From NCBI GenBank assembly GCA_029959195.1, contig CP114118.1, positions 682,001-746,000 of the forward strand: DNA of 64,000 nucleotides. Reading direction: 5' to 3'. Under the pieces are notes generated by a model. It did not search any database. It was not told the origin of the DNA and saw nothing but the letters and a program-made list of their open reading frames with translations. Below, in pieces: positions 41,122 through 62,760 of this stretch. The stretch is from Dictyophora rubrovolvata (lineage: Eukaryota; Basidiomycota; Agaricomycetes; Phallales; Phallaceae). A program made the position numbers and the translations under genes. The number at the start of each line of letters is the position of its first letter. Position 1 is the stretch's first letter.

Positions 41122-42542
41122 TCGAGAGCATTAAGAGAAAAGAAAAAAAGGTTCTGACAAATCACAAGGACGGTGATGGCGCCGTGGAAAACCCTTGCCA
41201 AACGCTTGTAAGCGGGTGGACCCTATCACTTCCGAGTCTTCCGTGTGAGAATATGTTTTTAGCGTGGATTTGAGTAAATCGCGGTCAAGAAACACGGCGT
41301 CAATGTCCAAAACGTTTGGCGGATGTCATGAAGCCCAGGTAAGCTTATCATTCTCCCCCCACCATGAATTTATGCCCATCTGAAGCGCCATAGACGTAGT
41401 AGGTTTGCTAGATGTATATACTCGAAGTTGGTTATGCTTTTGACCATAAGGGCAGGCCGGCCAATGCAGCTCAACAATGGGCTGAGAGAGGAGTGTCGTG
41501 CTCTCCTGTCGGATATCAAACGAAAACGGTAAGAACTGACATAACTCTTTATATATTACTATGGCAATTAAGAGATGATATACTATAGCTCGTAACGTGT
41601 GTTATTATGCCTTGTTCGATGCAGTAGGTGACTGCTGCTGCGGCCAACTGTTAAATAATATCAACTATCACAGTACCACTACTACATCCAAGTAACTGAT
41701 AATTATGGTCAACCCAGGCAATGGTGAATGGCTTTTCTACAGCCCCTTGGTTATGACGTCTCTGAGGGGGGTATAATCCAATATCGCTTCAGTTGGCACA
41801 GCAAATTCTCGTCCCGTTACCACAGTAGTTGCGGCCAGTTCATCGTAGATTCGTACCCGAGGCTCAATTTACCTTTCAAATGCCCTCGGCCGAAAATTTG
41901 GTTCTGATTTTGGAGCTGGTACATATCTGAGAAGGAAAATCAACGCTTTATCGAACTCTCAATATTTCCCTATTCACGCTCGCCCGTTAGCCCGAGGCTT
42001 AATGACAAACTAACCTCAACGGCAAACGTCCGACATATTGCTTACTGTCTATTTTCACCATCGCTTGAACTCCTATGCATTGCAACTAGATTCCCCTCCG
42101 TCAGAACTCCACTATGTAGCAGTGTTTCAGGCCCCTAAGTCTCCTCCATTGGAATTCGAAGTTCACCCGTACCTGTATGTACTTTTGCCCAATAAACCAT
42201 GCTAAATCCTTCGTTTGAAATACTGATCCAAATATTCTTACTCTGAAACAAGGATTCCCGCGTCGTTTGATGAGGTTAGGTGATCCGGGATCATGAGTAT
42301 GGGGCACCGAGCACCGAGCACTGGTCTCCTTCCGGCCTTTGTTCCTATTACTGCATCTGTACTACAGGAGTACGTGCTTGGTAAAATAGGATTCGGGCAT
42401 ATTTCTCCGGGCATGGAAGAAACAACAAACACAGCTCCTGAAGTCCCTAATTTTCAAAGTCCTCGTTTGCCAAAAAAATTCCTACATTGCTTTGAACTAT
42501 ACCATGGAGACTAATCTCAACGATTTAGGAGGTCTTTCTGCA

Positions 42543-42549
42543 TATAAAA
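42543..42549 (+). promoter_or_regulatory. TATA box of the left secreted-protein gene
   Basis: TATAAAA lies about 125 bp before the ATG at 42669. The right-hand copy of the gene does not share this promoter. Confidence 0.5.
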
Positions 42550-42555
42550 GAAGAT

Positions 42556-42660
42556 TCTTCTCAAGTTGATTTTGACAATTCATACCTATCTTATTACTCC
42601 TCAATCTTCTCAGTTGATTTTGACAATTCATACCTATTTTATTACTTTTCAATCTTCTCA
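42556..42660 (+). repeat. Tandem 49-bp duplication in the leader of the left secreted-protein gene
   Basis: Two adjacent units (42556-42604 and 42605-42652) both read TCTTCTCA, GTTGATTTTGACAATTCATA and CCTAT; a third partial unit begins at 42653 with TCTTCTCAA. It lies between the TATA box and the ATG, so it lengthens the leader. Confidence 0.9.
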
Positions 42661-42668
42661 AATCTATT

Positions 42669-44968
42669 ATGCATATCACAACTAACACCCTATATCTCGC
42701 ATTCCTTCTCGTCTCAGCGGGTTTCACTCATGCCATTGACAATACACCCTGCGTATCGGGATCCTGCTCTCATAGTGGAGGTGACAACGTGAAATCATTA
42801 GTCCACTCCATTTCCATAGTATGTCACTTTGAACACCCTGGAAGCGTAAAATATTGACATTTGTTATTTAGAACGGGTCCCAGGAGCTTATTGGGGATGT
42901 TACACAAGCAGCAGGCTGGAACATCCAAGGATGCGATCCTAATTGGAGTTCTGGTAATCATACTGTTATTATGACCTGTGAAGGCAGCCCGGATCAAACT
43001 CAGTACTGTGACCACGTTTTCAACGGAGGGGTTGAAAATACCATTGTACGCTTGCCCGAGAATGTGAGTTTCATTATGGTTCTTCGATGAAAGACGAATC
43101 GTTGATTTGCGTCTCATTTCAGTGTGGAACAGGACCGTTCGCAAGGATTGTTTCCATCGACAACGGAACTGACGGAGTGTATACGATGCAGTTGGATTAT
43201 AATTTTACACAGATCCCTGAATCGGCGTCAGTCACCTGTTTTTAAAAGCGGCACATAATTGTCATCTAATGGATTTTGTATCAGGCGGGAAAATGTCACC
43301 TTTGAAATAAACTTCGGCAATTCCGAGCCAGTTCCATCGAGCGCCAGTACCGCTCTACAACGTTCGTTCCCCTTCCACTTTCATATTGCAAATTTATACT
43401 CACATTATTATAGCAAGATGTAAGATAATTTTGCTTCACTGCTGACTTTCACACGTATATAACCCAGCCTGTCCGACCTTGCAGTTACTAAATCCGCATC
43501 CAAGACTTTTCCCATCGGCCCTTTTCAAAAAAGCGAGACCTTGCTCAATAAATCCGCGTCCTGTGATCTTGGAGCGGCTGACGTGGAACTTGATCTTAAC
43601 GTAGTAAGTGACGATCCAGTCATCATTTGCACTGAGAACATTATTAACATTTTTTTTCATCATAGGATGTCACGGGAACTGTAAACGGTAGCGTGACTCT
43701 CAATGGCACCATTACGGTGAGTGATATCCAGATTCAATCTTGCGCGAACTTTTTCAATCATTCAACCAGGGAAGCTTCGTGATAGTTAAAACGATTGTAA
43801 TCACAGCAGGTAGAGAAACTCAGCTCGCTGGCAGAGTAACAGAGACTCAAATAATTCGTTCCAGATATAGAGGGAACTGTGTCTATGGATTTGAATATCA
43901 ACGCTGGTCTATTGGTAATGTTTTCATGAATGGTTTATAAAGTACAAAACGTCCTCATTTTAGATAGGTATCAACTACCACCGGAGATCAACCATTCTTC
44001 TCCCTTTCAATTCCGGACTTGACCATTCCTGGGTAAAATACATTTTTGCCAGCTTAATCGTGTATGCATCATGATGAATTCTCGCAGAGTTATCACACTC
44101 GGACCTGAACTCGAGATTGATTCACGGGTTGATGTTGATGCTTCCCTGCAGTCCACAGCAATTGTTCATACCCAATGGGATATCAATAGTATTCACATTG
44201 TTTTTCCGTCCAGTGCAGGCGCATCATCACGCAGTATTACGCCTACTTCTTCTGATCGTATGTTTGTTCATCTATCCTCTCGTAAAGTCGGTCTTTCTTA
44301 CCCTTTTTCAAGCCATTCATATGAGTACCAATCCTTCGCTTGCGGTAGGCCCGAGCATAAGTGTCACCGGACATATCATACCAAAGGTTATTTGTTTCAC
44401 CTGTTGATGAGTTGTTTCGAGAATTGCTCACATTTCTGATTCAGTTCAGAGTCGGTGTTGACGCGCACGATTCTGGGTCGGTCACGGTAAAATTATGATC
44501 CAATTTTTTCTGCTTGCAATTGTCTAAATGTAAAACCGACAGGCATTCGCCGAGGCCGATTGCTTCCTTTCTTTCAGCACGGGCATACAGTCCAATTTCG
44601 GCAAGAGAGATTATTCTCGTGACCTGTTCAAAAGAGGAACTGTAGCTATGGTTTCAGTCGACGCTGGAGTTAGTTTTGATGTAGGTGTAGAAGGGTCGAT
44701 CGGACCCTTCTCAGGCGGAAATGAAATTCAATTAGCGACGCTGGAGACAAACTTGTTCAATGTGAGAAATTTTCTCACTGATGGATAATTTGATGAATCC
44801 TCAAATGCGTGGTTATTATGTTTTTTTTAGAGAGAATTCGGTTTGGCAGGTCCCCCTGCGAGACGAGAGGTTGAAGCACCTCGAGTCTTTAAACGTGATG
44901 ATGACTCGGATACCACGGAATGCCCCAGTGCTAACGACATTGTCGCTTCCCTTCAAAAACTAATTTAG
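42669..44968 (+). CDS. Secreted beta-rich protein (DUF7223-like, tentative), left copy
   Basis: Predicted secreted protein of unknown function, about ten exons. A signal peptide (hydrophobic core LYLAFLLVSAGF, cleavage near THAIDN) precedes the Cys-containing mature start NTPCVSGSCSHSGG. Next come DVTQAAGWNIQGCDPNW, YCDHVFNGGVENTIVRLPEN and CGTGPFARIVSIDNGTDG, with several N-glycosylation sequons. The middle has repeated short strands (VTGTVNGSVTLNGTIT) and DLTIPGVITLGPELEIDSRV, which resembles the DUF7029/DUF7223 group of large fungal secreted proteins (from memory, not searched). Late exons give VTAFAEADCFLSFSTGIQ, VAMVSVDAGVSFDVGVEGSI and a tail with VFKRDDDSDTTECPSAND. Junctions around the small exons near 43390-43470 are uncertain. 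From SGSCSHSGG on, it is virtually identical to the inverted copy at 58939-61220. Confidence 0.65.
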
Positions 44969-45981
44969 AATATTGAAGGACTAAGTTATGATTGCTGGTA
45001 CAATTTACGATTATCATGATGTCACCGTATATAGTAAACCTGTTTAAGAACATTCCTTATTATTAGGTATTATCGCGGCGCTGTTTTAATTAATTATTAT
45101 TTATTTATTTGAAAGCCTGTTCCAAATGCTTTCCCCTTGTTCACTTTACGATTATAAACATTTTCGAATTTATGTTCAAACGTTTGAGCATATGGCGAAG
45201 TTCTTGTTCCAATTAAACAAACAACAGCTTCGATCTCTTTCTCGTGAATGTCTTGATGTGCTCATATATTTATGTTTGTGAATGAATCATAAAAGAAAAT
45301 AAATTTGACAGTACTCTATATAATAACATCGACCTCGATCATAACTTATTACATCTCTAGTAAGTCTAACCAGCTTTTACTTGTTGTTCAACAAAACATT
45401 CATAGCTTACATAATTCCACCATATTTCAGATCAAACTTTCAAGGCTAGTGGCAATTTTGTAAGTTAATTAGTCTCTTCCCTAGTGGTCGGTAATGACGA
45501 CTATATTACCTGTAAGTTAATTAGTCTACAGGTGTGTAAGTATGTTATGTTATTATATTGATATGGTTTACTCACCTCTTCCCTAGTGGTCGGTAATGAC
45601 GACTAGGGGAGAGGTGACACGCTTGTACTATGTGTATAGGGTGTGATACTGGCACTTAGTATGCTGGATTCTAACAAATTTCTGAGGGAGTGGGGCATTA
45701 GAGGGTTTCATGTGGGGGAATTCACTCTGAATTCACTCTGAATTCAGTGGATAACTCCAACCTGAACTCCAAAACTGATTTCCGGAGAATTCTGAGAACC
45801 ACCTATAGTACCCACGTGATACTATCATACTAGACTATGTGACAGATACTGTTACGTACTCTAGTAAGATAGTTCCACTCAAAAATCTCTATCCTGCAAA
45901 TATTACAGTGAATGCTCATAGGCATTTTGTAGTACTTCAGAGGACTTCACTGTGAGGAGAATTTTTTAATTATTTTACACT
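42754..45981 (+). repeat. Inverted repeat, left arm, outer part
   Basis: This segment is matched in reverse complement by 57926-61153 with constant coordinate sum (103,907, briefly 103,906). By eye I find two one-base homopolymer differences (near 44210 and 44821) and one T/C substitution near 45954 in about 3.2 kb. The outer edge falls inside exon 1 of the secreted gene. The inner end is the insertion site of the LTR element. Confidence 0.95.
44969..45981. other. Non-coding part of the left arm with internal repeats
   Basis: About 1 kb between the secreted gene and the LTR element. A 30-bp block containing CCCTAGTGGTCGGTAATGAC occurs twice (near 45480 and 45584), GTAAGTTAATTAGTCT occurs twice, and GAATTCACTCT is repeated near 45719-45745. 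These could be scars of small mobile elements; no coding sequence is visible. Confidence 0.6.
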
Positions 45982-46696
45982 TGTTGAGGGCCGGAACGAG
46001 TTACATGGAGATGGCATGAATTCGACGGCTAATTTTGATGATGCGTTTAGACCAGCGCCTAGAAACCAGAAGTGACGGCACTGCTCGTTGTGGTGTAGGC
46101 CAAGCTAGAATAAACTTGGCATCGCAAGATTATAGCCCCGTATATGCTCAGTCCCCGTGTTCATGATTTTATTAACCACTCATATGACTCAACGCCCAAG
46201 TAAAAAAAATAGTAGCCTAATTGGTTATAAAAAACCTTTGTTTCTGGCACTCGTGTTTGTTTTTTTTTTCTTTTTTTATTTCAAAACCCTTCTCAGCGTT
46301 CATTCCAATCGCGATCGACATTGAGTACAATCTTTTTCGCCTTTAAACTTTTCCATTTCACAACGCTTTTCTCTCCTTCCATTCTCTTCCAAGTGTTTTT
46401 TCTTGTTTTCTTTTCTCATTATAGATATCAAAGCTCCATTTATTGGGGCTTATGCAAGGAAAATGTCTATAAAAACTAGTAGTTTAGATATGAAATATTA
46501 TGGTATTATCCCCCCTCTAGTTATTCACTCGCTGCAAAGAACGATCTCATTGTTCGCTGTGTCGAACTACTTCTATCCTCTATTCCTCAAAATCTTTATT
46601 TTACTTATACTATCTCATTTTATTTACACATCTCTATCCAACACACATTGACACCGGTTCCCTCTTTCTCTGCATACTCCTGAGCAGCGCATATCA
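45982..46696 (+). repeat. 5' LTR of the Gypsy-type element
   Basis: 715 bp from TGTTGAGGGCCGGAAC to GCGCATATCA. A TATAAAAAA-type promoter box lies near 46224. It matches the 3' LTR over its whole length at about 98 percent. Confidence 0.95.
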
Positions 46697-46697
46697 T

Positions 46698-48611
46698 TTG
46701 GTGACCACCGCAGGGAATCGTTTTGTCTTTGTGTGTCGTGATCCTATAACAAAACCACACTCAAAATTCCTAGATATTCAATTGTCTCGAGTGGCATCTA
46801 CACATCGCTATAACCTACAGTCTCTAGTAAACAATCTTTCCCTACACGAAGAGTCCCCGGAACAATTCCCCATTGTGTCAGAATCATTGCTAAATCCAGA
46901 AGATATCCCCAGTACCATCTCGTCACTTCCTACGCCGATTACTTTAACAACACCAGCTTCATTCGATTTCCCCGCACTTGATTTATTGCAATCAGATAGC
47001 GAATTCAGAAACTACGCACTAATAAACGAGGCTGCTATGGCTGCTACACCACGCGCGATCCCACTGCCTACGAGAAACTCTGACAAAGCCCCACGATTCG
47101 ATGCTGATAACCCTTTGTCTTTATGGGATTATTTCGTCGACTACGAAATGTTGGCTAATGCGGCACAATTAGATCAAGTAACAAAAATTCAGCGATCGGT
47201 CATTTACCTGAAGCATGCAGAGGCTGACTTTTGGGAGTCTCTTGAAGAATACAAGACAGCAACGGAATGGGATACCTTCAAGAATGCAGTTTTAAAATGT
47301 TACCCAGGTGCAATTCCTAAGGACAGGTGGACTCTCGAAGATCTTGACAACATATGTGCAACGCAAAGGATGAAACGCATCGAAACGAGAGGAGACTTCG
47401 GGGATTTTGAAAGGAAGTTTTCCAAGGTAGCAACGTCACTGATGAACAACGACCTCCTTTCCGATATGGAAGCTCAGAAACTGTTCTGGGGCACCTTAGA
47501 TGCATTCTTTCAAGGAGATTTGGCCCGAGAAATCAAATTCACGAAGCCAGGCTATACGAAGACAACCATCTTGACTCTCAAAGAGATATGTGATACGGCA
47601 GAGACATTTTTGGATGGGACACCAGCTGTGAGGAGCGAGATAGCCGAAAGGAGTTCAATCAATGCGAAGGAAGAGACAGCAGTGAAAAAGATTAAAGCGG
47701 AACCTTTTGATATGGATCGTTTCACTTTACAAATAGGTGCAATGATGGCTCAGACAGTGGAAACGGCGATCACCACAGCCATGAAGAGTATGGCCACCAT
47801 GTATGCGCCTATTACGCAGCCAAATCCTGTACGAAACTCCGGAGCAGGAACCTACAATCCACCCCGTGCAAACAATGTCACTCCAGCATGTTTTATGTGT
47901 GGACAAAATGGCCACTTCCTCAATACGTGCCAGATTTTGCAGCAGTATCTAAATGAAGGAAAATTAAACAGAGATGCACAGGGTAACTATTGCCTAATGC
48001 ACGGAGAAAGGATTCCCGCATTCCCGCGAAATGTGCCTTGGGTACAAAAAATCGATGAGTTTTATAGACAATTCCCAAATATTGCTGCAGCCATATTACC
48101 AATCCCAGTTTCTGCCCCTGTAGCATCTGCAAATCTAGTTGAAATCAAGATAACAGAAGCTTCTGTTACATCTGCAGAAAAAGAAGAAAATTTAGATTCA
48201 TATATCGCCACCCTTCAAAGGATAAATACTCACGAAGATGAGGACGATGAAGCATTGGGAGATGTGATGCAGGTCTTAGAGGCGAGGGTTACTAGAAGAA
48301 AAAAGGCAGAGGAAGCGTTAAATCAAGGTCCCCAGGAGAAGCTGTCGGGACCCACCATTGATGTCACCAGTCTTGCTAATGCAAACAAAACAGCAGCAAA
48401 ACCAGCACCCGCTCCAGTCTCCGCACCCGCTCCAGCTGTCTCTAAAGCTTCAGAACAGCAGTACCGGTTCCAAGCTCCCTGCGAGATTTTGGTAAAACCT
48501 GCAGAAGTCCTCAACTGTATTCTGAGTCAAAGCGTCACCTTAAATGTTGAAGAATTACTTGCCTTATGTCCAGACATTCACAAATACTTCAAAGAGGCTA
48601 CGACAACGTGA
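46698..48611 (+). mobile_element. Gag region of the Gypsy-type element
   Basis: Fossil capsid-nucleocapsid region of the retroelement. It shows a helical capsid-like part (for example WDYFVDYEMLANAAQLDQ) and one CCHC zinc knuckle (CFMCGQNGHFLNTC) near residue 395, followed by an Ala/Pro-rich tail. It belongs to the Ty3/Gypsy type common in mushroom genomes. Confidence 0.85.
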
Positions 48612-48620
48612 AGGGTAGCT

Positions 48621-49175
48621 GTGGAGAATCAAAAGAAGGAAGAATTGTCTAAACTGGCATTAACAAATATGAGCTCTACCTTTTCAGTTGAAGAAGACCC
48701 TCGCGATGGACTAGATGCGGTTCCCTCTATGCCCTTGCGACTCATTGATGTAGTCATTAACGACAACTACAGTGTTTCGGGTATTCTCGACAGTGGATGC
48801 CAAATCGTTGTTATGCGAAAAGACATCTGGAGTAACCTGAGGACACCTTTACGCTCGGATCATACTATCGACATGGAATCCGTGAATGGAATAACAAATA
48901 AAACAATGGGCCTTTTACCCCGGGTCAAGTTTTCCGTTGGCGATGTACATCTGTTCTGCTCAGTTCAAGTTGTGGAAAACATGCCGTTTGAGCTCCTATT
49001 GGGCCGTCCATTTACTACATGCGGTCAAGCCATGATTCGTGACCTATTTGACGGCAACATGGAAGTGACATTAATTGATCCAAGGTCCGGAGCAGTAGTA
49101 ACGTGCCAAACCCACCCTCGAAATGCAAACACAAAGCCAAATAAGCCCAATCAAATCTCCGCAAATTTTCAATAG
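48621..49175 (+). mobile_element. Protease region of the Gypsy-type element
   Basis: Retroviral-type aspartic protease segment recognised from ILDSGCQIVVMRKDIW and the second strand PFELLLGRPF. It is part of the broken pol region of the fossil element. Confidence 0.8.
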
Positions 49176-49972
49176 TCGAGGAATCCTACTCAGGAGGAGA
49201 CGAAAAGAAAGAAACTAGAGGACTAAAAAAGTCAGTAGAAATAAGTAAACAGTTCAAAAAACCGTGTCATTTTGTTATGAGATCTCTTAAAGGAATAGAC
49301 TATGCCATAATTTCCCCTTATATTGTTAGACCTGTCAAAAGTGCTCTCTCACCCCTGTATACCGCACCCCCTCATGTAACATTGCCCAAAGAATCGTCTC
49401 CCATATGTTGTTTTGCCCCTCCTGTTTCGTTATGCTATACCATCGCTACTAACAATTATAGATTGCTATCCAATCAGGAGCTAGTTGTCGAATCAGCCAG
49501 GATTATTGAAAGGAAAGAAGAAATGGCAGAATTATGAAGAAAAATATTAAAGAAAATTGCCTCATTACCACATTATCCTCGTCAAGGAGGACTCCTTCAC
49601 TTCGGACGATCTATGGTGCCGGTACCATCACTAGCCCACTTAGCAGCTTTGTCGGATGCTGATTTGCTCACCTATGGGGGATACCTTGACTCCTTTTTCA
49701 AGTCCCGTTTCCCAAACAATCCTATCTCCATCGTTGAATTCCCTCAAGTGCTGGCAGCCATTCCCAAAAAAGAAAAAGATACCTCTGTTTCAGTATACGG
49801 AAAATACAAGAAAGTTGCTGATCATATTCGACCAGTACCTGCTACCTTATCTGAGAAATTTCGGATTGTCTGTCGTTATCCTTCCAATCCTCTAGGAGAT
49901 TTACCTGAGCTTCCCCTCCATCCCCCTTCTTTTAAACCTACGTCGAAATTTACACTGGAGTGACTGGCGAAA

Positions 49973-51384
49973 ATGAATATAAACGAAACAAAATTCTTAT
50001 GGCCTGAAGAGGAGAAACTTGCCTTGTGGATCATGGTGGCGCAAGAAGATGCAATCGCATGGATACCTGAAGAAAGAGGAAGCTTCTACAAGAAGTATTT
50101 TGACCCCGTTGTGATTCCAACTATCGAACACATCCCGTGGTTTGAAAAGAATATCCCTATACCCCCCGGCAATTATGAACGCATAATTGCCATTTTAAAA
50201 GAGAAGGTTCAATTAGGAGTATACGAACCTTCAAACTCATCCTATAGATCCCGTTGGTTCTGCGTAAATAAAAAAGGAGGAATCAACTTACGTGTGGTAC
50301 ATGATTTACAGCCTCTCAACGCCATAACCATTCGAGACTCGGGAGTTATTCCATTTGTTGACATGCATACTGAGATGCTAGGTGGACGGGCCTGTTACTC
50401 AGCATTCGATTTATTTGTTACTTACGATCAGCATAAACTTGCAGAAGAAAGCAGAGATCTGACGACGTTTTACACACCTATGGGAACACTACATCTTACG
50501 AGTCTGCCCATGGGAGCTACCAATTCAGTCGCTGTACTACAGGGCGATGTTTGTTTTATTCTTCGAGATGAAATCCCCAATGTCACTGCGCCATTCATGG
50601 ATGATGTTACTGTTAAAGGTCCAAGGACACGGTACGAAACAGATATTGAAGGTTTCTACTTACCTTCTCCAATGGGTTGGCTGCCTGAAGATCCCCAAGT
50701 TGATGCTGTTCCTTGCACAAAAGGAGACGATGGAATCTATTATGAAATATTAGAAGAAAATTCTGGCATTCGCCGCTTTATTTGGGAGCACCTCAATAAT
50801 GTCAATCGTGTTTTGCATCGGTTCAAGAAATTTGGCAGGACATTTTCGGGAAAGAAGCTCGACATATGTGCCGGCTCAGTTGTAGTGGTAGGACATGAAG
50901 TTAGCTATGAAGGGCGTCAACCGGAGAAGATAAAGATTGACAAAGTACTCAACTGGGAACCGTGTACAATGGTAACAGCAGTTCGAGGGTTTTTAGGAGT
51001 TTGTGGTGTTGTTCGGATTTGGGTGAAGAATTTTGCGAAGAAAGCGAAGCCACTAGTGCAATTGATGAGAAAGAATGTAGAGTGGGAGTGGGGAATGGTG
51101 CAGGAAGAAGCAATGAAGGAGTTGAAGGATGTTGTACAGTCTGCATCTTGCCTAAGACCCATCGACTATCACGCAAAAAATTGCCCTGTGGTCCTTGCGG
51201 TAGATTCGTCAAACATTGGTGTCAGATGGCTCCTCTTACAGATTGGGCAAGATGGCAAACACTACCCGAACTGTTTTGGGTCAATAAACTGGAACGAACG
51301 CGAGTCTCGATACTCACAGCCAAAGTTGGAGATCTATGGGGTATGGAGAGCCATGCGAGCAATGCGCCTCTATATTGTAGGCGT
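49973..51384 (+). mobile_element. Reverse transcriptase and first part of RNase H of the Gypsy-type element
   Basis: Recognised from INLRVVHDLQPLNAITIRD, YSAFDLFVTYDQHKL, TPMGTLHLTSLPMGATNS and FMDDVTVKGP, followed by the connection/RNase H stretch with VLAVDSSNIGVRWLLLQIG. Typical of Ty3/Gypsy elements in Agaricomycetes. Part of a broken element; the right end is cut by a later insertion. Confidence 0.88.
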
Positions 51385-53640
51385 TGTAACGATCCGAAGA
51401 TAATAGCTAAATGTCGTAGCTATATATACAATCGGAAAAACTACAAAGATATTTTGTTTGAGGCCGTCTAGTCTCCGTGGAGTGGGTCCTGGTGCTGATT
51501 TCGTAAGGAGGAGGGTGGGGGAATAATATGATATTTAGTGAGTGTGTGTGTGTCGATATAAAACCAACAACAACAAAAAAATGATGATCCTAAGATCGTG
51601 TGTGTGTGAGGGGGATGATAAATGTGAGTTGCGATAAAAATGGTGAGTCAATACACCGTCGATAATACAGCGATGATAATCTGTTTTAAAGTTAGTAAGG
51701 CTTCAACGACAATACGAATCGTTGAGTTTATACTCCGAGGCCTCACTCAGAGTAATCCAAAGAAATAGACGTGAGCGTAGAAATAGACTAGAGACGAAAC
51801 TTGACTTGAACTTGACTTAAACTGAACTAAACTTGAGACAACTGTTCCGGTAGATTGCTGCTGTTACATGTATTTACATGCAGTATTTATACCGTTTGGA
51901 AACATAAAGGAAAGCGGAATGATCACTCATCATTCATCATGATAACAAAAGGAAACAAAAAGAGAACAAAGAAACAAAAGAAAAAGGAGAAAACGATGGA
52001 GGATACAATTAAAAAAAAAAGGGGAATCACATATGTGGTTAGGGGGAATAGGAGAAATATGTTGAAACAAAAAGAGAAACAAAAGAGAAACAAAAAGAGA
52101 TCAAAAGAAGACGATGAAACCGGATTCCCAGCATAGCTTTACCAAAATCACCATCTGGCACTTCTCGTGCTACCTCTTACCCAAAACTATAATCTTACCA
52201 TCCCAAACTTCTTACTGATCTGGTTCTTGTTGACGAGATCTTCTTCTTCGTGGCTGTGGCGCAATAATAATGGCTATGGCAACGCTTAACAATACCAGAT
52301 CTTGAACGAGATTGGATTGGAGATCGGAATAGGAAGGGAGGGTTTGGTTTCCAACAGAGTAGTTGGGAGGGGATGGGATGGCAGATAGGGGTGCGTCTAT
52401 GAATAAGAATTGAGTATAACTTCGAAATTGATGACGAAAGACCAGTCTCCAGATTGATTCTTCTTGACGATTTGTTGAAAGGAACTCGACAAACTCATAC
52501 GATTCGTCCATGACATTGACGTTGGTTCGTTCGTACAGGGTTAAAGCTCGTGGATATCCTATCTCCAGATTGTCGTAAGGAATAGTAATCTCCATTAGTG
52601 GCTGTGGAGTAATCGGAAGCATTGTGGAGGGGTCGACATCAATTTCAGAAACAAGAGTATTGTAAACGCGAAGTCATGAGAGGAAATTAGGGTTGGGTCC
52701 GAATCTGAGAGAAGAACGATATTCAAAAGGGAAGAAAGGGAGTTGAAAAAGGGGAATAGGGGAAGTAGGAGTATCGTTATTGTCCGACATGATGATATGA
52801 GTTAACCAAAATTTTTAAGCGCTAATGAAATGTCCAAAAAGAAAGAAGGAGATGAAATACAAATCTAATCGCTTATCCTAATCAAGCCTTTTGTCCTAAT
52901 TTCATCCAAGAAGGTTTGAGCAAACGCGTCGGATCTTTCGGAAGGATCATTTGGATGGAGAAGAGGGGAGAGATATTGGTTCTGGCGAATGGGGTGAAAA
53001 ACGAGACATTTGAGGATCTACAGGAACAAGATTGGCTGGTCTATATGGGCTATGTTTTTGCATTTTTATGTTTTTCATGACAACCCAACGACTTGGCACA
53101 TCTAGAACCAGGAATGTAAATTCGAACCCTTCTTGTGTCACTAACCAAATCCGATATGAGTCTTTAATGGCTGATTCGGGTGTAGAATAAACGTTGATAA
53201 TTGTAAACCAGTCTAATCGTTCCTCAATATAAACCTTTTCTCCAAACATGAGACTGGGGTGAACCAAATCCGAACTTCTGCATTGACGAATAATAAGAGG
53301 TGGAGGGAACTTCGGGAGGTACGTTTCTTCATCGATGTCGAGACTCGCATATTGGGAACTATAGATATAAAGAGTTGTATGCAGATCCAAATCGTATGTC
53401 CTTGGACTGGAAGGTGAAAAATGAAAAGGTGATATAGATTCATCGTCGGAGGGGGGTAATGACTCGGTGGGAGATGCTGGAATGGGCAAAGAGATTGATG
53501 ATGTATAGTGAAATGAAAATGCGGCCATTTTTCATAAGGGTTTTGATTTCGAGAGGCTGTGGTGTATCGGTTAAGTTTTTGGTAGTTTGAAACTGCGCTT
53601 TGAACCAAAAATCGGAACGTTTCCTTATTAGAAAGATTTT
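51385..53640. mobile_element. Secondary insertion inside the Gypsy-type element
   Basis: About 2.2 kb that separates the RNase H part ending LYIVGV from its continuation LVIEVDAKYIKGMLTNPD. The right boundary is approximate. Its left 484 bp (51385-51868) start with TGTAAC and end with GTTACA and carry a TATAAAA box, so they resemble an LTR of a second family. The remainder has two open stretches on the minus strand (52622-52212 and 53528-52947) rich in Pro, Ser and Tyr, with no domain I recognise. No clear target duplication was found. Confidence 0.6.
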
Positions 53641-55513
53641 GGTGCGCGACAGCATGGAAAGACTTGTCATTGAAGTGGATGCGAAGTATATCAAAGGAAT
53701 GCTTACCAACCCAGACGTTCAGCCAAACACGGCAATAAATCGATGGATTACAGGAATCAAACTGTTTCAGTTTGATTTAGTCCATGTCCCTGCAGAGTGG
53801 CACGTTGCGCCAGACGGGATGTCTCGTCGTGAACGGATGGAAGGAGACAAGGAGGAAGATGAAGGAGAGGAGGCGGCAGAAGACTGGATAGACACTCTGA
53901 TGTCGTTCTCAGTCGAAGTTTTGAATGCGAGGCCATGGAACCAGAGACGGGTGCGAGTCCCTTCGACGAAGCTGGAGATATGGGCTCAATTGCCCGGCTG
54001 CACAGAACAAGAGTTCAAAAGAGACGCGGTATCTGTGTATATGGGGAAATTCGTGGGAGAGGAAGATGAGATAGGGCCCGACGATGACCAAAGAAATGAC
54101 GTGGTACTCACAAATACCGAATTCCCACAGAAAACGGAGAAAATCCAACAGCAGGACGAGCGAGTGAAGGTTGTACGGGAATTCTTGAAAAATCCTCACA
54201 AGTTCGCTTCCTTGTCGTCACGCGAACTTCATATCATGAAGAACTATGCTGGCCGTTTCTTTATTTCAAACAACTCTCTCATGCGTCGTGACATTACGGG
54301 GCGACACAAAATAGTCCCAACAGAAGATCGCCGTTTTCGAGTCCTTAGCGAATGTCATCATCAGGTTGGCCACAAGGGAAATTTTACGACACATAAAAAC
54401 CTACAGGATTGATTTTGGTGGCCAGGAATGCAAGAGGACGCATGATGGTTTTACCAGACTTGCCACATCTGTCAAATGCGTTCCACGCAGAAAGTCCATA
54501 TCCCACCTGTAGTCGCTGAGATTCCAACATTGTTTCGACGAGCGTATATCAACACAATGATGATGCCTGCAGCAAATAAGTTTAAGTACATCGTCCAAGC
54601 ACGGTGTGGACTTACTAGCTGGCCTGAGTGGTGACCACTTCATAGAGAGAACCAAAAGACGCTTGGTGACTTTATCTTCGAGGAGATTTTATGTCGGTGG
54701 GGAGGTGTTGAAGAAATAATTACGGACAACGGAACACCATTTATTGCCGCTATGGATTATCTATCAGAACACTACGGAATTCATCATATCAGGATCTCAG
54801 CTTACAATAAACAGGCAAATGGCGCGGTGGAAACCAAGCACTTTGACGTCTGCGAATCTATCATGAAAGCCTGTGAAAACGACAACTCTCAATGGTACAA
54901 AGTAGCTCACCAAGTGTTCTGGGCAGAATGGATTACAATTCGACGTACCATAGGATATTCTCCTTATTTCATGGCCCATGGAGTCGAAGCCATCATGCCG
55001 CTAGATTTGTCGGAAGCTACGTATCTTGTTCCTGTAGTAGACACACCCTTGACGACAACTGAGCTCATCGCGCTTTGAGCTAGGCAACTTCAGAAAAGAC
55101 CAGATGACATGGAGGCAATGCGCGAACGGATTCGTCAATATCACGAGAAAAACCGACAAGTCTTTCTCAAAGAACATAGCCGGATGATGCATGAATACAA
55201 TTTTCAATGCGGAGATTTGGTCTTGGTACGAAATACCTGTTTTGATACAGATGTGGGCAATAAAACGAAGCCACGGTATATTGGGCCCATGATCGTTATC
55301 CGGAAGACAAAGGGTGGAGCTTACATTCTAGCCGAAATGGATGGTGCAGTCCTTCATCTTCCAATCGCAGCCTTTCAGTGTTTGCCGTACCACTCCCGTA
55401 CTCTAAAAATAAAAGTGGTAGCTAAAGCAGTTGGAACAGAAGCATTAAAGAAGATCCTCCAAGAACGTAAAGAAGATAACGATTTTAAAAATAGCCCTGA
55501 CACAGACCTATAG
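53640..55513 (+). mobile_element. RNase H end and integrase region of the Gypsy-type element
   Basis: Continues with the RNase H segment (INRWITGIKLFQFDLVHVPA, then PDGMSRRERMEGD), followed by the integrase zinc-binding region (CHHQVGHKGNFTTHK), the catalytic core region (YGIHHIRISAYNKQANGAVE, TIGYSPYFMAHGVEA) and a C-terminal chromatin-binding-like region (GPMIVIRKTKGGAYILAEMDG). Fossil, broken. Confidence 0.85.
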
Positions 55514-56077
55514 ATAAGATATTCATCACGAGCCCCTGATCCTCTTTCGCATTGTCGTTCTTGTCATTCTCATCGCATGAATCACAATAAAGAGAAAAAT
55601 GATAATATTTCCTGCACTATGTCTTTCTCTTCAACCAACTTCACTTTTCACTTGTTAATTGTCTCAAGTTTCTTATTTCTTTCTCATTGTCATTCTTGTT
55701 GCATTTATTGCGCAAAATTTCTCATTCAGCTCGCTCATTATTCGTCATTGGCTGCCAAGTTTCTCCCGTTATGTTTGCCTCACTGTCAACCTATTTTGAT
55801 TTTGTATCTGGTTTTCATTTCTTCCGTTTTATATTTCCGCCTCATATTTCTCGTATCTCTTCCTTTCTCTGTCTCGCATTTCTCATATTTCGTTTCTTTT
55901 AATTTCCATCTCATATTTCTTTTGTCAAAAATCCCACATCAATTGCAAACATGGTTTTAATCAAGATCCATGCAGAGCAACGTTGCTGAAGAAGATTTTA
56001 CTATCGAAAACCGTCAAAAACATTTATTTTTCTTTTGTCACTGACGACGGAGCGTCAGTAGTAAGGTCCCCAGGAGA
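55514..56077. other. T/C-rich tail of the Gypsy-type element before its 3' LTR
   Basis: Pyrimidine-rich, apparently non-coding stretch between the integrase region and the 3' LTR. A short purine-rich motif (AGGAGA) just before 56078 may be the remains of the polypurine tract. Confidence 0.5.
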
Positions 56078-56792
56078 TGTTGAGGGCCGGAACAAGTTAC
56101 ACGGAGATGGCACGAATTCAACGGCTAATTTTGATGACGCGTTTAGACCAGCGCCTAGAAACCAGAAGTGATGGCACTGCTCGTTGTGGTGTAGGCCAAG
56201 CTAGAATAAACTTGGCATCGCAAGATTATAGCCCCGTATATGCTCAGTCCCCGTGTTCATGATTTTATTAACCACTCATATGACTCAACGCCCAAGTAAA
56301 AAAAATAGTAGCCTAATTGGTTATAAAAAACCTTTGTTTCTGGCACTCGTGTTTGTTTTTTTTCTTTTTTTATTTCAAAACCCTTCTCAGCGTTCATTCC
56401 AATCGCGATCGACATTGAGTACAATCTTTTTCGCCTTTAAACTTTTCCGTTTCACAACGCTTTTCTCTCCTTCCATTCTCTTCCAAGTGTTTTTTCTTGT
56501 TTTCTTTTCTCATTATAGATATCAAAGCTCCGTTTATTGGGGCTTATGCAAGGAAAATGTCTATAAAAACTAGTAGTTTAGATACGAAATATTATGATAT
56601 TATCCCCCCTCTAGTTATATTCACTCGCTGCAAAGAACGATCTCATTGTTCGCTGTGTCGAACTACTTCTATCCTCTATTCCTCAAAATCTTTATTTTAC
56701 TTATACTATCTCATTTTATTTACACATCTCTATCCGACACACGTTGACACCGGTTCCCTCTTTCTCTGCATACTCCTGAGCGGCGCATATCA
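56078..56792 (+). repeat. 3' LTR of the Gypsy-type element
   Basis: 715 bp, same ends as the 5' LTR and about 98 percent identical. It is followed directly by CACT and then by left-arm sequence that continues the inverted repeat. Confidence 0.95.
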
Positions 56793-57210
56793 CACTAAAA
56801 CTATTATTTTCAATCAATTAAATATTAGTTTCTTTAATTCTCATTGGCTACTATGACTGCACATCATCACCCGCGGCATTGTTGAACCAACACATCATCA
56901 TCACATGACTCGTTCATCACAGCTTGTCACTATGTCACCCATCACTCAAAAGTCTCTGTTGTCATCATTGGCCACAGTGGCAGCGATACTATCCCCATTT
57001 CTCAGTATTTTTGAGCACTTTTTTTCTCTTTCATTATATCTATTCTTCTTCCATCTTTTTAATAGACAATTTCTCTTCAACCCATTGTCAGGGCTACTCA
57101 CTCAGACTAGAGGGAGGGGATCCTAAGTAACTGTATTGGATAAATACTAACTAACTCACCTACAGGGAGGGGATCCTAAGAGAACAAACTTAGGGATCCC
57201 TCCTCTAGGG
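56793..57210 (+). repeat. Inverted repeat, left arm, inner part
   Basis: Matches 57512-57929 in reverse complement with coordinate sum 114,722, with no difference seen. It holds a 73-codon open stretch (56905-57126) duplicated in the other arm, and near its inner end two copies of GGGAGGGGATCCTAAG followed by the inverted CTTAGGGATCCCTCC. Confidence 0.95.
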
Positions 57211-57511
57211 TGTTACGTACGGTGGTCTTGTCAGGGTACGCTAGCGTCGTCCCCTTATTTTCCTTCGTTTATCTTTGGTTCTGGTTTATCTTATTCATTT
57301 CCTTATTTCTCGTATTTTATCCCATTTCCTACATTCCCCCTTCCTTCCGTATTCCCTTCTTTCCCTCCAATGGGCGCTGAGCACCTGTTCCCATCAGAGC
57401 CATGGCCTAGGCCCCAGCTAAAAGTCTGGGACCGGCGCGTATCCACGCCCAGTCCATGAACCGAAGGCCGTGTGTGGCCTTCGCTGTTTTTTCATAGTAT
57501 ATAGTTAGTAG
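57211..57511. other. 301-bp spacer between the inverted-repeat arms
   Basis: Single-copy sequence at the centre of symmetry. It starts TGTTACGTACGG, like many Gypsy LTRs of mushrooms, and has a GC-rich second half (GGGCGCTGAGCACCTG) with a small hairpin CGAAGGCCGTGTGTGGCCTTCG, given here as its two stems GAAGGCC and GGCCTTC. No matching LTR end is seen on the right, so it may be an LTR fragment or unrelated. Confidence 0.7.
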
Positions 57512-60500
57512 CCCTAGAGGAGGGATCCCTAAGTTTGTTCTCTTAGGATCCCCTCCCTGTAGGTGAGTTAGTTAGTATTTATCCAATACAGTTACTTAGG
57601 ATCCCCTCCCTCTAGTCTGAGTGAGTAGCCCTGACAATGGGTTGAAGAGAAATTGTCTATTAAAAAGATGGAAGAAGAATAGATATAATGAAAGAGAAAA
57701 AAAGTGCTCAAAAATACTGAGAAATGGGGATAGTATCGCTGCCACTGTGGCCAATGATGACAACAGAGACTTTTGAGTGATGGGTGACATAGTGACAAGC
57801 TGTGATGAACGAGTCATGTGATGATGATGTGTTGGTTCAACAATGCCGCGGGTGATGATGTGCAGTCATAGTAGCCAATGAGAATTAAAGAAACTAATAT
57901 TTAATTGATTGAAAATAATAGTTTTAGTGTAAAATAATTAAAAAATTCTCCTCGCAGTGAAGTCCTCTGAAGTACTACAAAATGCCTATGAGCATTCACT
58001 GTAATATTTGCAGGATAGAGATTTTTGAGTGGAACTATCTTACTAGAGTACGTAACAGTATCTGTCACATAGTCTAGTATGATAGTATCACGTGGGTACT
58101 ATAGGTGGTTCTCAGAATTCTCCGGAAATCAGTTTTGGAGTTCAGGTTGGAGTTATCCACTGAATTCAGAGTGAATTCAGAGTGAATTCCCCCACATGAA
58201 ACCCTCTAATGCCCCACTCCCTCAGAAATTTGTTAGAATCCAGCATACTAAGTGCCAGTATCACACCCTATACACATAGTACAAGCGTGTCACCTCTCCC
58301 CTAGTCGTCATTACCGACCACTAGGGAAGAGGTGAGTAAACCATATCAATATAATAACATAACATACTTACACACCTGTAGACTAATTAACTTACAGGTA
58401 ATATAGTCGTCATTACCGACCACTAGGGAAGAGACTAATTAACTTACAAAATTGCCACTAGCCTTGAAAGTTTGATCTGAAATATGGTGGAATTATGTAA
58501 GCTATGAATGTTTTGTTGAACAACAAGTAAAAGCTGGTTAGACTTACTAGAGATGTAATAAGTTATGATCGAGGTCGATGTTATTATATAGAGTACTGTC
58601 AAATTTATTTTCTTTTATGATTCATTCACAAACATAAATATATGAGCACATCAAGACATTCACGAGAAAGAGATCGAAGCTGTTGTTTGTTTAATTGGAA
58701 CAAGAACTTCGCCATATGCTCAAACGTTTGAACATAAATTCGAAAATGTTTATAATCGTAAAGTGAACAAGGGGAAAGCATTTGGAACAGGCTTTCAAAT
58801 AAATAAATAATAATTAATTAAAACAGCGCCGCGATAATACCTAATAATAAGGAATGTTCTTAAACAGGTTTACTATATACGGTGACATCATGATAATCGT
58901 AAATTGTACCAGCAATCATAACTTAGTCCTTCAATATTCTAAATTAGTTTTTGAAGGGAAGCGACAATGTCGTTAGCACTGGGGCATTCCGTGGTATCCG
59001 AGTCATCATCACGTTTAAAGACTCGAGGTGCTTCAACCTCTCGTCTCGCAGGGGGACCTGCCAAACCGAATTCTCTCTAAAAAAACATAATAACCACGCA
59101 TTTGAGGATTCATCAAATTATCCATCAGTGAGAAAATTTCTCACATTGAACAAGTTTGTCTCCAGCGTCGCTAATTGAATTTCATTTCCGCCTGAGAAGG
59201 GTCCGATCGACCCTTCTACACCTACATCAAAACTAACTCCAGCGTCGACTGAAACCATAGCTACAGTTCCTCTTTTGAACAGGTCACGAGAATAATCTCT
59301 CTTGCCGAAATTGGACTGTATGCCCGTGCTGAAAGAAAGGAAGCAATCGGCCTCGGCGAATGCCTGTCGGTTTTACATTTAGACAATTGCAAGCAGAAAA
59401 AATTGGATCATAATTTTACCGTGACCGACCCAGAATCGTGCGCGTCAACACCGACTCTGAACTGAATCAGAAATGTGAGCAATTCTCGAAACAACTCATC
59501 AACAGGTGAAACAAATAACCTTTGGTATGATATGTCCGGTGACACTTATGCTCGGGCCTACCGCAAGCGAAGGATTGGTACTCATATGAATGGCTTGAAA
59601 AAGGGTAAGAAAGACCGACTTTACGAGAGGATAGATGAACAAACATACGATCAGAAGAAGTAGGCGTAATACTGCGTGATGATGCGCCTGCACTGGACGG
59701 AAAAAACAATGTGAATACTATTGATATCCCATTGGGTATGAACAATTGCTGTGGACTGCAGGGAAGCATCAACATCAACCCGTGAATCAATCTCGAGTTC
59801 AGGTCCGAGTGTGATAACTCTGCGAGAATTCATCATGATGCATACACGATTAAGCTGGCAAAAATGTATTTTACCCAGGAATGGTCAAGTCCGGAATTGA
59901 AAGGGAGAAGAATGGTTGATCTCCGGTGGTAGTTGATACCTATCTAAAATGAGGACGTTTTGTACTTTATAAACCATTCATGAAAACATTACCAATAGAC
60001 CAGCGTTGATATTCAAATCCATAGACACAGTTCCCTCTATATCTGGAACGAATTATTTGAGTCTCTGTTACTCTGCCAGCGAGCTGAGTTTCTCTACCTG
60101 CTGTGATTACAATCGTTTTAACTATCACGAAGCTTCCCTGGTTGAATGATTGAAAAAGTTCGCGCAAGATTGAATCTGGATATCACTCACCGTAATGGTG
60201 CCATTGAGAGTCACGCTACCGTTTACAGTTCCCGTGACATCCTATGATGAAAAAAAATGTTAATAATGTTCTCAGTGCAAATGATGACTGGATCGTCACT
60301 TACTACGTTAAGATCAAGTTCCACGTCAGCCGCTCCAAGATCACAGGACGCGGATTTATTGAGCAAGGTCTCGCTTTTTTGAAAAGGGCCGATGGGAAAA
60401 GTCTTGGATGCGGATTTAGTAACTGCAAGGTCGGACAGGCTGGGTTATATACGTGTGAAAGTCAGCAGTGAAGCAAAATTATCTTACATCTTGCTATAAT

Positions 60501-61153
60501 AATGTGAGTATAAATTTGCAATATGAAAGTGGAAGGGGAACGAACGTTGTAGAGCGGTACTGGCGCTCGATGGAACTGGCTCGGAATTGCCGAAGTTTAT
60601 TTCAAAGGTGACATTTTCCCGCCTGATACAAAATCCATTAGATGACAATTATGTGCCGCTTTTAAAAACAGGTGACTGACGCCGATTCAGGGATCTGTGT
60701 AAAATTATAATCCAACTGCATCGTATACACTCCGTCAGTTCCGTTGTCGATGGAAACAATCCTTGCGAACGGTCCTGTTCCACACTGAAATGAGACGCAA
60801 ATCAACGATTCGTCTTTCATCGAAGAACCATAATGAAACTCACATTCTCGGGCAAGCGTACAATGGTATTTTCAACCCCTCCGTTGAAAACGTGGTCACA
60901 GTACTGAGTTTGATCCGGGCTGCCTTCACAGGTCATAATAACAGTATGATTACCAGAACTCCAATTAGGATCGCATCCTTGGATGTTCCAGCCTGCTGCT
61001 TGTGTAACATCCCCAATAAGCTCCTGGGACCCGTTCTAAATAACAAATGTCAATATTTTACGCTTCCAGGGTGTTCAAAGTGACATACTATGGAAATGGA
61101 GTGGACTAATGATTTCACGTTGTCACCTCCACTATGAGAGCAGGATCCCGATA
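57512..61153 (-). repeat. Inverted repeat, right arm (unoccupied site retained)
   Basis: 3,642 bp, the reverse complement of the left arm with the LTR element removed. The AGTG at 57926-57929 is the single-copy target site. The arm ends at 61153 inside exon 1 of the right secreted gene. Confidence 0.95.
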
Positions 61154-61220
61154 TACAAGGAATGTTGTTCATGGCCTGGGCAAAACCGGTTAAAGCGAGG
61201 AGGAATGTAAGAATCTGCAT
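58939..61220 (-). CDS. Secreted beta-rich protein, right copy (frame interrupted)
   Basis: Inverted paralogue of the gene at 42669-44968, convergent with it. Its own signal peptide (core ILTFLLALTGFAQA) and mature start NNIPCISGSCSHSGG differ from the left copy up to the Ile/Val before SGSC; from there the sequence is practically identical. One visible coding difference is a T6 instead of T5 run near 59701-59706, which shifts the frame in the exon after DINSIHIVF, so this copy would be truncated unless the extra base is a sequencing error. The intron near 59085 also differs by one base in a homopolymer. Its promoter is unrelated to that of the left copy. The model ends at the TAG complementary to 58939-58941. 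Confidence 0.6.
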
Positions 61221-61861
61221 AATTGTAGAATCAAACAGCAGGGAAGTTTAGTATTGAGACTGTTTGGAAGAAGACAGAACTCTGGAGCTCTAGAGAGTAG
61301 AGTGCACGGAACTAGTAAATCTGCTCGACAAAAATCTTTATTAAGTAGAATCCTCCTGGACGGATGGGGTTAAAGATCAAAGTCTCCAGCGCATGATATC
61401 CAAACAGTGTAGTATTCAATTTGGGTATCTTTCTGAAAACGCATAGCTTCCATACATCATTAATGTGATATTAGCCTGGGTTTGCACTTGCGGCTTGGGA
61501 AGTTGCATTTGTAAATTGTGCATGACAACAACGCGTTACGCGACATTAGTGAAGTAGCTCATTTGGTTGTTAGGTAAGCGGCATGATATCCTGCCATCCG
61601 GCAGGGATGAGGACAGTTTCAATCGAGTACTTTCAGGTTGCGACTACTGCAAGACACTGACAACCGTTCTGAAGCATCTGCAAAACTTAGCTGTTTTTAC
61701 TTAATGTGTCATATTCAATCCAAGCGTGACGAAGAGTGGGAGTGCAGCGCGACTAGTATTGGCGCCTAAAAGTTGTACATAGTTAGCTTAGCGAGCTCGC
61801 CTAGAGTTCAAGGCTGGGTGCGCGTTTCTTTCATCTTCTGTTTTCTTTAGTAGATACTGAC

Positions 61862-61882
61862 GTTCAAGGCTTCGCCTTGAAC
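61862..61882. repeat. Perfect short hairpin
   Basis: GTTCAAGGC and GCCTTGAAC, separated by TTC, form a 9-bp perfect stem. The same arm recurs at about 61805-61814 (GAGTTCAAGGC), so a larger alternative fold of about 85 nt is possible. Confidence 0.8.
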
Positions 61883-62286
61883 TCTTAGATATCCGTTGCA
61901 CAGTAATATATTCCATATTACCCTATTTGTTGTGAAAGCGTAGCGTTTAACTCGGTGATGATCAAGAACGAAGTTGAGGCCGTTGAGGGACAAGTGTGGC
62001 AGTGGAGTCTAAGGATCCAAGGGGGCTCACGCTCTCAGGGTCACCGGGACCGGCCACCTAACCTATCAAAATGAAGCAGAACTCCTTTTGGGAACTTGGG
62101 TCGCTGAAGCCGTGACTTTGGAAGAAGAATTTTCGCATGTCTTAAGGAATATATTAATATGTACAGGTAACTTCCAGTGCACGTTGGACGTCGAGCTTTC
62201 GGTCCGCCAGTAAGTCGGCGGTCGCACGAGTTCACGTTCGAAACGTCTTCAACCATCAGAAAGGCACATATGGCCAAAAGGGGGAA

Positions 62287-62371
62287 GATGAAAATGATTT
62301 CCCAAATCTTGTCCTTTGCTACTCGATGATGAAAATGATTTCCCAATATTGAGTCTTGTCCTTCGCTACTA
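62287..62371. repeat. Tandem duplication of about 42 bp
   Basis: Two units share GATGAAAATGATTTCCCAA and CTTGTCCTTTGCTAC / CTTGTCCTTCGCTAC. The second unit has a few extra bases. Confidence 0.85.
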
Positions 62372-62409
62372 AGCACTCATTGCCGCTGCGGTCATAATTT
62401 ACAGAATCA

Positions 62410-62760
62410 GAATGTCTCGAAGGGGATCTCCCAAATTGAAGTCTTCCTAAGAAAAATACAATAATCACGCCTTTGAAAATTCATCAAATTATCCATCATT
62501 CATCCCGGAGTAGAACTCTTACCTGGAAAAAGTTTGTTTGCATCCACCGACGTCAATAAAATCGTTATCTCCATCTTTCAAGGGCCGATTGGCCCTGATA
62601 CACCTCCATTAAAATTAACTGCAACATCGATTGAAACCGAAGCTAAAGTCCCTGCTCTTTTAAAGAATGATCTGTGATAGAGCTCTGTATACCCGCGTCT
62701 AGAATAGATGCGGTTGTTGCTATCAAATCGGTAGGAAACCTAATCTTTAATGGTAGGTAC
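62410..62760 (-). pseudogene. Decayed third copy of the secreted-protein gene (C-terminal exons)
   Basis: Shows clear but degraded similarity to 59045-59310 in the right copy: the intron stretch with ATTCATCAAATTATCCATCA is shared exactly, and the coding block corresponding to VSVDAGVSFDVGVEGSIGP is recognisable around 62560-62670 (AAGGGCCGATTGGCCCTGA against AAGGGTCCGATCGACCC). Only the 3' part of the gene is present, and the flanks diverge. Same orientation as the right copy, so it is a tandem relic. Confidence 0.7.

Follow-up and report, generated by a model that had tools for sequence, protein, structure and literature searches.

The 64-kb window analysed here, the whole stretch of Dictyophora rubrovolvata DNA under study, corresponds to C2:682001-746000 of the assembly searched (28.2 Mb, 11 contigs). 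It contains two convergent paralogous genes, A and B, whose bodies lie in the opposing arms of a long inverted repeat, and an LTR retrotransposon that interrupts one of these arms. The locus is situated ~0.72-0.74 Mb into a 3.15-Mb contig, that is, away from the contig end. Its features, in window coordinates, are as follows.

42669..44968, plus strand: gene A, the inferred recipient; heuristic 15-exon model of 480 aa, secreted and DUF7223-like (spliced model, Pfam, chimaera test)
42669..42753, plus strand: first part of gene A, not included in the identical tract, with a leader that by eye resembles a signal peptide (four-gene alignment)
42754..45981, plus strand: outer segment of the left arm, the putatively overwritten tract (self-comparison)
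45982..56792, plus strand: LTR retrotransposon of 10.8 kb, LTRs at 45982-46696 and 56078-56792 (self-comparison, ORF family scan)
56793..57210, plus strand: inner segment of the left arm, the last ~125 bp (57086-57210) being the inverted tail of dispersed repeat E
57211..57511, no strand: spacer of 301 bp, made up of 17-19 bp like the TG-end of family X (57211-57229) and the first 282 bp of the right-hand repeat E
57230..57637, plus strand: right-hand, complete copy of repeat E, ~408 bp, starting GTCAGGG and ending CCCTGAC near 57635
57512..61153, minus strand: right arm, the inferred donor side, with the empty site of the LTR element (self-comparison)
58939..61220, minus strand: gene B, the inferred donor (heuristic spliced model)
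61140..61585, minus strand: start of gene B (to 61220) and its 5' flank, homologous to the tandem paralogue C (70%; genome search)

The inverted repeat and its genes

Self-BLAST and repeat finding recovered the arms as two matches, the first between 42754-45981 and 61153-57926 (3229 columns, one mismatch, two gaps) and the second between 56792-57210 and 57930-57512 (419 bp, 100% identity). The original prediction had described a near-perfect inverted repeat with a 301-bp spacer between its inner arm ends and three differences between its arms, and had proposed a self-alignment of the window as a check; that alignment reproduces the description exactly, both arm segments included. Once the LTR element is omitted each arm measures 3.64 kb, and the structure consists of reverse-complementary arms around a short spacer, as in other long inverted repeats. 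The three differences comprise the lengths of two T runs (44200/59706 and 44821/59086) and one T/C substitution (45953/57954), a CpG transition located 29 bp from the LTR element. Arm identity and phasing are those of the assembly sequence. As the window holds no further inverted match of more than 86 aligned bases at E 1e-5, the repeat is not a chance pairing. Only ~419 bp on each side is at present contiguous with the spacer: with the left arm interrupted by the 10.8-kb insertion, the structure as it stands is not an unbroken 3.64-kb palindrome, which weakens the earlier suggestion that a large hairpin could form at its centre.

A search of the assembly with the right arm as the query revealed no third near-identical copy among the 47 matches listed (40 of 386 candidates were scored). 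Among these matches were gene relatives at 72-74% and a 94-bp piece beside paralogue C at 80%; the remaining high matches listed were short dispersed repeats located within the arms. A dispersed repeat of ~220 bp occupies window positions 58227-58452, is mirrored in the left arm and has at least 32 matches of at least 165 bp elsewhere in the genome (87-95%). Upstream of gene B, at window 61721-61947, lies a short repeat that accounts for 45 of the 49 matches listed for 61140-62700, spread across many contigs.

Past position 42753 gene A is identical to gene B except for the lengths of the two T runs. The heuristic models of the two genes differ in some splice choices, exon 1 included. One of the T-run differences sits in a mid-gene coding exon, and the frame of gene B is then out of step with that of A and of the paralogues C, D and F, a difference that may be real or may be a read error. 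The translated leaders are MHITTNTLYLAFLLVSAGFTHA in gene A and MQILTFLLALTGFAQA in gene B. Paralogue C is in tandem with gene B just outside the window (C2:747696-749352), D is at C2:2737430, and F is on C9. When heuristic spliced models were scored against the Pfam family DUF7223 (PF23865; gathering cut-off 27 bits), paralogue C reached 30.3 bits and gene A 19.3. The proposal that the convergent paralogues carry a secreted-protein cargo is thus supported, in that each has a leader resembling, by eye, a signal peptide and C passes the family cut-off, which A does not. A six-frame HMM search of the genome with DUF7223 gave no match and, as the controls were likewise silent, is uninformative. 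No solved structural relative of the gene A protein was found (a single chain was listed, at E 0.12), nor was any mention of DUF7223 in the literature searched.

Two observations concern the wider family. Between B and C, window 62414-62654 is ~72% identical to the 3' part of A/B (window 59043-59271), and this fragment is probably, judging by its similarity, the remnant of a further paralogue. The D and F loci (L031, C2:2734500-2741500, and L032, C9:1602500-1609500) are 97.5-97.9% identical over ~5.6 kb in two pieces, F lacking a 317-bp portion of D in which exon 1 begins.

The outer edge in exon 1

The outer arm edge falls inside exon 1 of both genes. Gene A starts at 42669 and gene B at 61220, the first 85 bases of A being outside the arm, and homology continues in diverged form beyond 42754/61153 up to the start codons. 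Identity between A and B is 46 of 67 aligned positions before the edge and 294 of 294 just inside it, an abrupt change within homologous sequence of the kind that marks the end of a conversion tract. In an alignment of A, B, C and D, from which paralogue F was omitted because it is without the pre-edge stretch, and with gap columns left out of the counts, the informative sites group as AD|BC at 7 of 7 positions before the edge and as AB|CD at 16 of 16 after it (Fisher p = 4e-6, neighbouring sites not being independent). The nearest relative therefore changes, and a donor is identifiable, at the outer end only: further in B-C identity drops to ~60%, and the inner flank is without an outgroup, so the donor test works only here.

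The direction of the change follows from the comparison with C. At aligned positions B-C identity is 63/67 before the edge and 267/294 after it (p = 0.48), whereas A-C identity rises from 58/85 to 267/294 (p = 1.5e-6). It should be emphasized that the pre-edge stretch is short (67-85 bp, 7 informative sites), that A-D identity within it (61/84) is hardly above that of A-C, and that, the gene B leader being 21 bases shorter than the C leader, pre-edge B-C identity is only 0.57 if gaps are scored as differences. The 5' flanks of B and C are also alike (70% over 446 bp, 81 bp of which are in the gene), and a genome search at E 0.001 found no other match to the 5' flank of gene A (42100-42663). 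Since B-C identity is steady, A-C identity jumps and B and C have a flank in common, A is likely to have received sequence at the outer end, from B or from a B-like gene. The most likely reading of these patterns is that gene A was overwritten by gene B over ~3.6 kb, through ectopic conversion or break-repair copying.

B-C identity itself shows a step inside the arm, from ~91% in the first 430 bp (exons 0.906, introns 0.917) to 0.681 in exons and 0.743 in introns over the next 670 bp. An earlier exchange within the cluster may account for this step.

The inner edge and the retrotransposon

The left arm terminates in the tail of repeat E (~125 bp), inverted and cut where family X begins. Repeat E has at least 43 other near-complete matches, 39 of those listed being 91-94% identical. 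An exact motif search found that E runs on past the cut point in 8 of 8 occurrences across six other loci; the left arm has TGTTACGTACGG instead. At two mismatches, three further matches to the 20-base E/X junction were found, against none for the reversed control pattern. Family X comprises at least 40 copies of at least 460 bp, the query included; among the matches listed the T of TGTTACG is the exact starting point of 23 of 40, and 13 begin one base earlier. From its TG start and its length, X may be an LTR. With the left E replaced at the cut by the start of X, the spacer consists of 17-19 bp of X and 282 bp of E. The likeliest course of events is that X inserted into the left E and that a deletion then took the rest, and the original inner edge has probably been lost.

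Two other ways of reading the centre were discarded. The missing target duplication around the right-hand E might be taken as proof of a central deletion, but a duplication of at least 4 bp is present in only 4 of 19 other E copies (9, 8, 8 and 5 bp, two of the four, L018 and L019, having identical flanks). Nor is E an element with long inverted termini positioned at the palindrome centre, the left piece being a truncated inverted copy cut at the start of X. Copies of E nested within E occur at L010 and L015, and the nest site in L015 is the internal E position at which X cuts the left arm; the shared position is perhaps a preferred insertion site.

The LTR retrotransposon is present in the left arm only, where it is flanked by a target duplication of 4-5 bp (CACT/ACACT); the right arm retains the empty, uninterrupted site. 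Its 715-bp LTR has at least six further full-length matches (1-715) in the genome at 93-96%. When three of its ORFs were scanned, one was above the cut-off for RNase H-type reverse-transcriptase families, with RVT_1 below cut-off, a second matched DUF4100 below cut-off and the third had no family match.

Origin of the near-identical arms

The account that we consider probable, reconstructed from sequence comparison, is that B, the inverted neighbour of A, recently overwrote A over ~3.6 kb, by conversion or break-repair copying, and that the LTR element entered and the inner end was trimmed later. The starting point would be a facing pair of old convergent paralogues, separated by one or more copies of repeat E; without the LTR element the 3' ends of A and B are now ~3.2 kb apart. 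Repair of a break within or close to exon 1 of A may have used B as an inverted template, so that, in what could be a single event, long-tract ectopic conversion or break-induced copying replaced the sequence of A with ~3.6 kb of the body of B, its 3' flank and the E repeat. The LTR retrotransposon would have entered the left arm afterwards, and insertion of element X followed by a deletion would have trimmed the inner end. The outcome would be a chimaeric gene A, in which its own 5' flank and leader precede the mature protein of B. Within this sequence of events, the identity of the arms, the switch point in exon 1 and the fact that B, not A, is in step with C at that end are direct observations.

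It could be argued instead that the B side was duplicated in inverted orientation very recently, through template switching or end joining, and that the copy came to lie in exon 1 of a resident paralogue of which no earlier body is left. The sequence would look no different if a local copy of B, in inverted orientation, had been attached to a resident exon 1, and the switch point does lie at a short stretch, TATCGGGATCC, that is identical in A, B and C. Gene A, however, begins with a diverged exon 1, has a flank of its own and is in convergent orientation, features that point to an older resident gene, and a duplication of this type is in our view possible but unlikely. The structure would be an assembly artefact if two haplotypes, or two repeat copies, had been collapsed or joined into a chimaera; assemblers are prone to err in identical arms, and two of the three differences between the arms are in homopolymer length, where read errors are common. 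Against such a join, the outer flanks are unrelated past the gene starts, the LTR insertion and its target duplication are in one arm only, the edge lies in homologous but diverged sequence at which the nearest relative switches, and the assembly resolves 28.2 Mb into 11 contigs. An artefact of this kind appears improbable.

A further possibility is that the arms are kept identical by repeated conversion between them, a process that would have continued since the LTR insertion, acting on both sides of the element without removing it. At face value the LTR pair favours this view: it differs by 13 substitutions in 715 bp, and the arms by one in 3642 (p = 7e-10). All 13 are transitions, however, and 12 are at CpG, and the raw LTR clock was therefore rejected as proof of conversion after the insertion. 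In an eight-copy alignment the same pair has 14 differences, with a T-run gap placed otherwise, and the CpG form predominates in the six other LTR copies at 12 of 12 CpG difference sites. CpG sites have changed at 12 of 34 positions in the LTRs versus 1 of 129 in the arms (p = 1e-8), a pattern of methylation-type transposon decay that is silent about the arms. CpG-biased transposon decay is described for a basidiomycete in a passage of one report (PMC4469406). The pair is thus not directly usable as a clock and cannot date the arms relative to the insertion. With non-CpG substitutions alone the count is 1 in the LTRs against 0 in the arms (p = 0.16). Adding non-homopolymer indels gives 2 against 0 (p = 0.027), and adding all indels gives 3 (the one substitution and two 2-bp indels in ~715 bp) against 2 (the T-run indels in 3642 bp; p = 0.034). 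These values are no more than a hint that homogenization of the arms postdates the insertion. A tract spanning the insertion would be expected to erase the LTR element or to copy it, and continuing conversion appears unlikely. The suggestion that the inverted paralogues form a working leader-swap device, in which they keep exchanging bodies while each retains its own 5' flank and leader and the 10.8-kb retrotransposon is tolerated rather than erased, is more doubtful still. The original prediction had held that the arms are either kept identical by gene conversion or very young. Overwriting of the resident A by B, a recent event, is favoured over fresh duplication alone because gene A retains its own exon-1 start and 5' flank; repeated maintenance, in contrast, is not shown, one event being enough.

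Ectopic gene conversion between inverted paralogues is a known process, an example being the facing Hsp70 pair of Drosophila. The present locus resembles that pair in its facing gene copies with near-identical bodies and diverged flanks, but here one arm is split by a retrotransposon and the edge lies just past the leader-coding start of exon 1, so that the recipient A retains its own leader and 5' flank. Mammalian Y palindromes are reportedly kept alike by arm-to-arm conversion, a finding attributed to Rozen and colleagues in 2003. Gene-bearing inverted arms of very high identity are common to these palindromes, to those of the willow sex chromosomes and to the locus described here, which differs in that its arms extend over a few kilobases and in that an older paralogue pair has apparently been overwritten. 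The willow palindromes are likewise described, in a passage of PMC7023750, as kept alike by arm-to-arm conversion. Within the fungi, part of a report on Cryptococcus MAT loci (PMC12510652) describes multiple, often divergently oriented pheromone genes and proposes that they act as inverted repeats and conversion templates. Inverted gene copies as proposed templates in a fungus are thus shared with that system, at least as it is presented there, although its genes encode mating pheromones in a mating-type locus and those considered here a DUF7223-type secreted protein. A strict literature query for inverted paralogues together with conversion found no paper, which does not imply absence from print.

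Known processes suffice to explain the locus, which is a clean and instructive example of a known copying process and not a new kind of structure. Its value lies in the internal evidence, which indicates the overwritten copy and the point at which the exchange ended, information that is usually blurred in identical gene pairs. It also illustrates that an LTR pair such as this one, with differences so largely confined to CpG transitions, is a poor clock for the surrounding DNA. If strains were compared, the locus could gauge how frequently inverted paralogues are rewritten in this fungus, and could show whether a large insertion in one arm blocks such rewriting.
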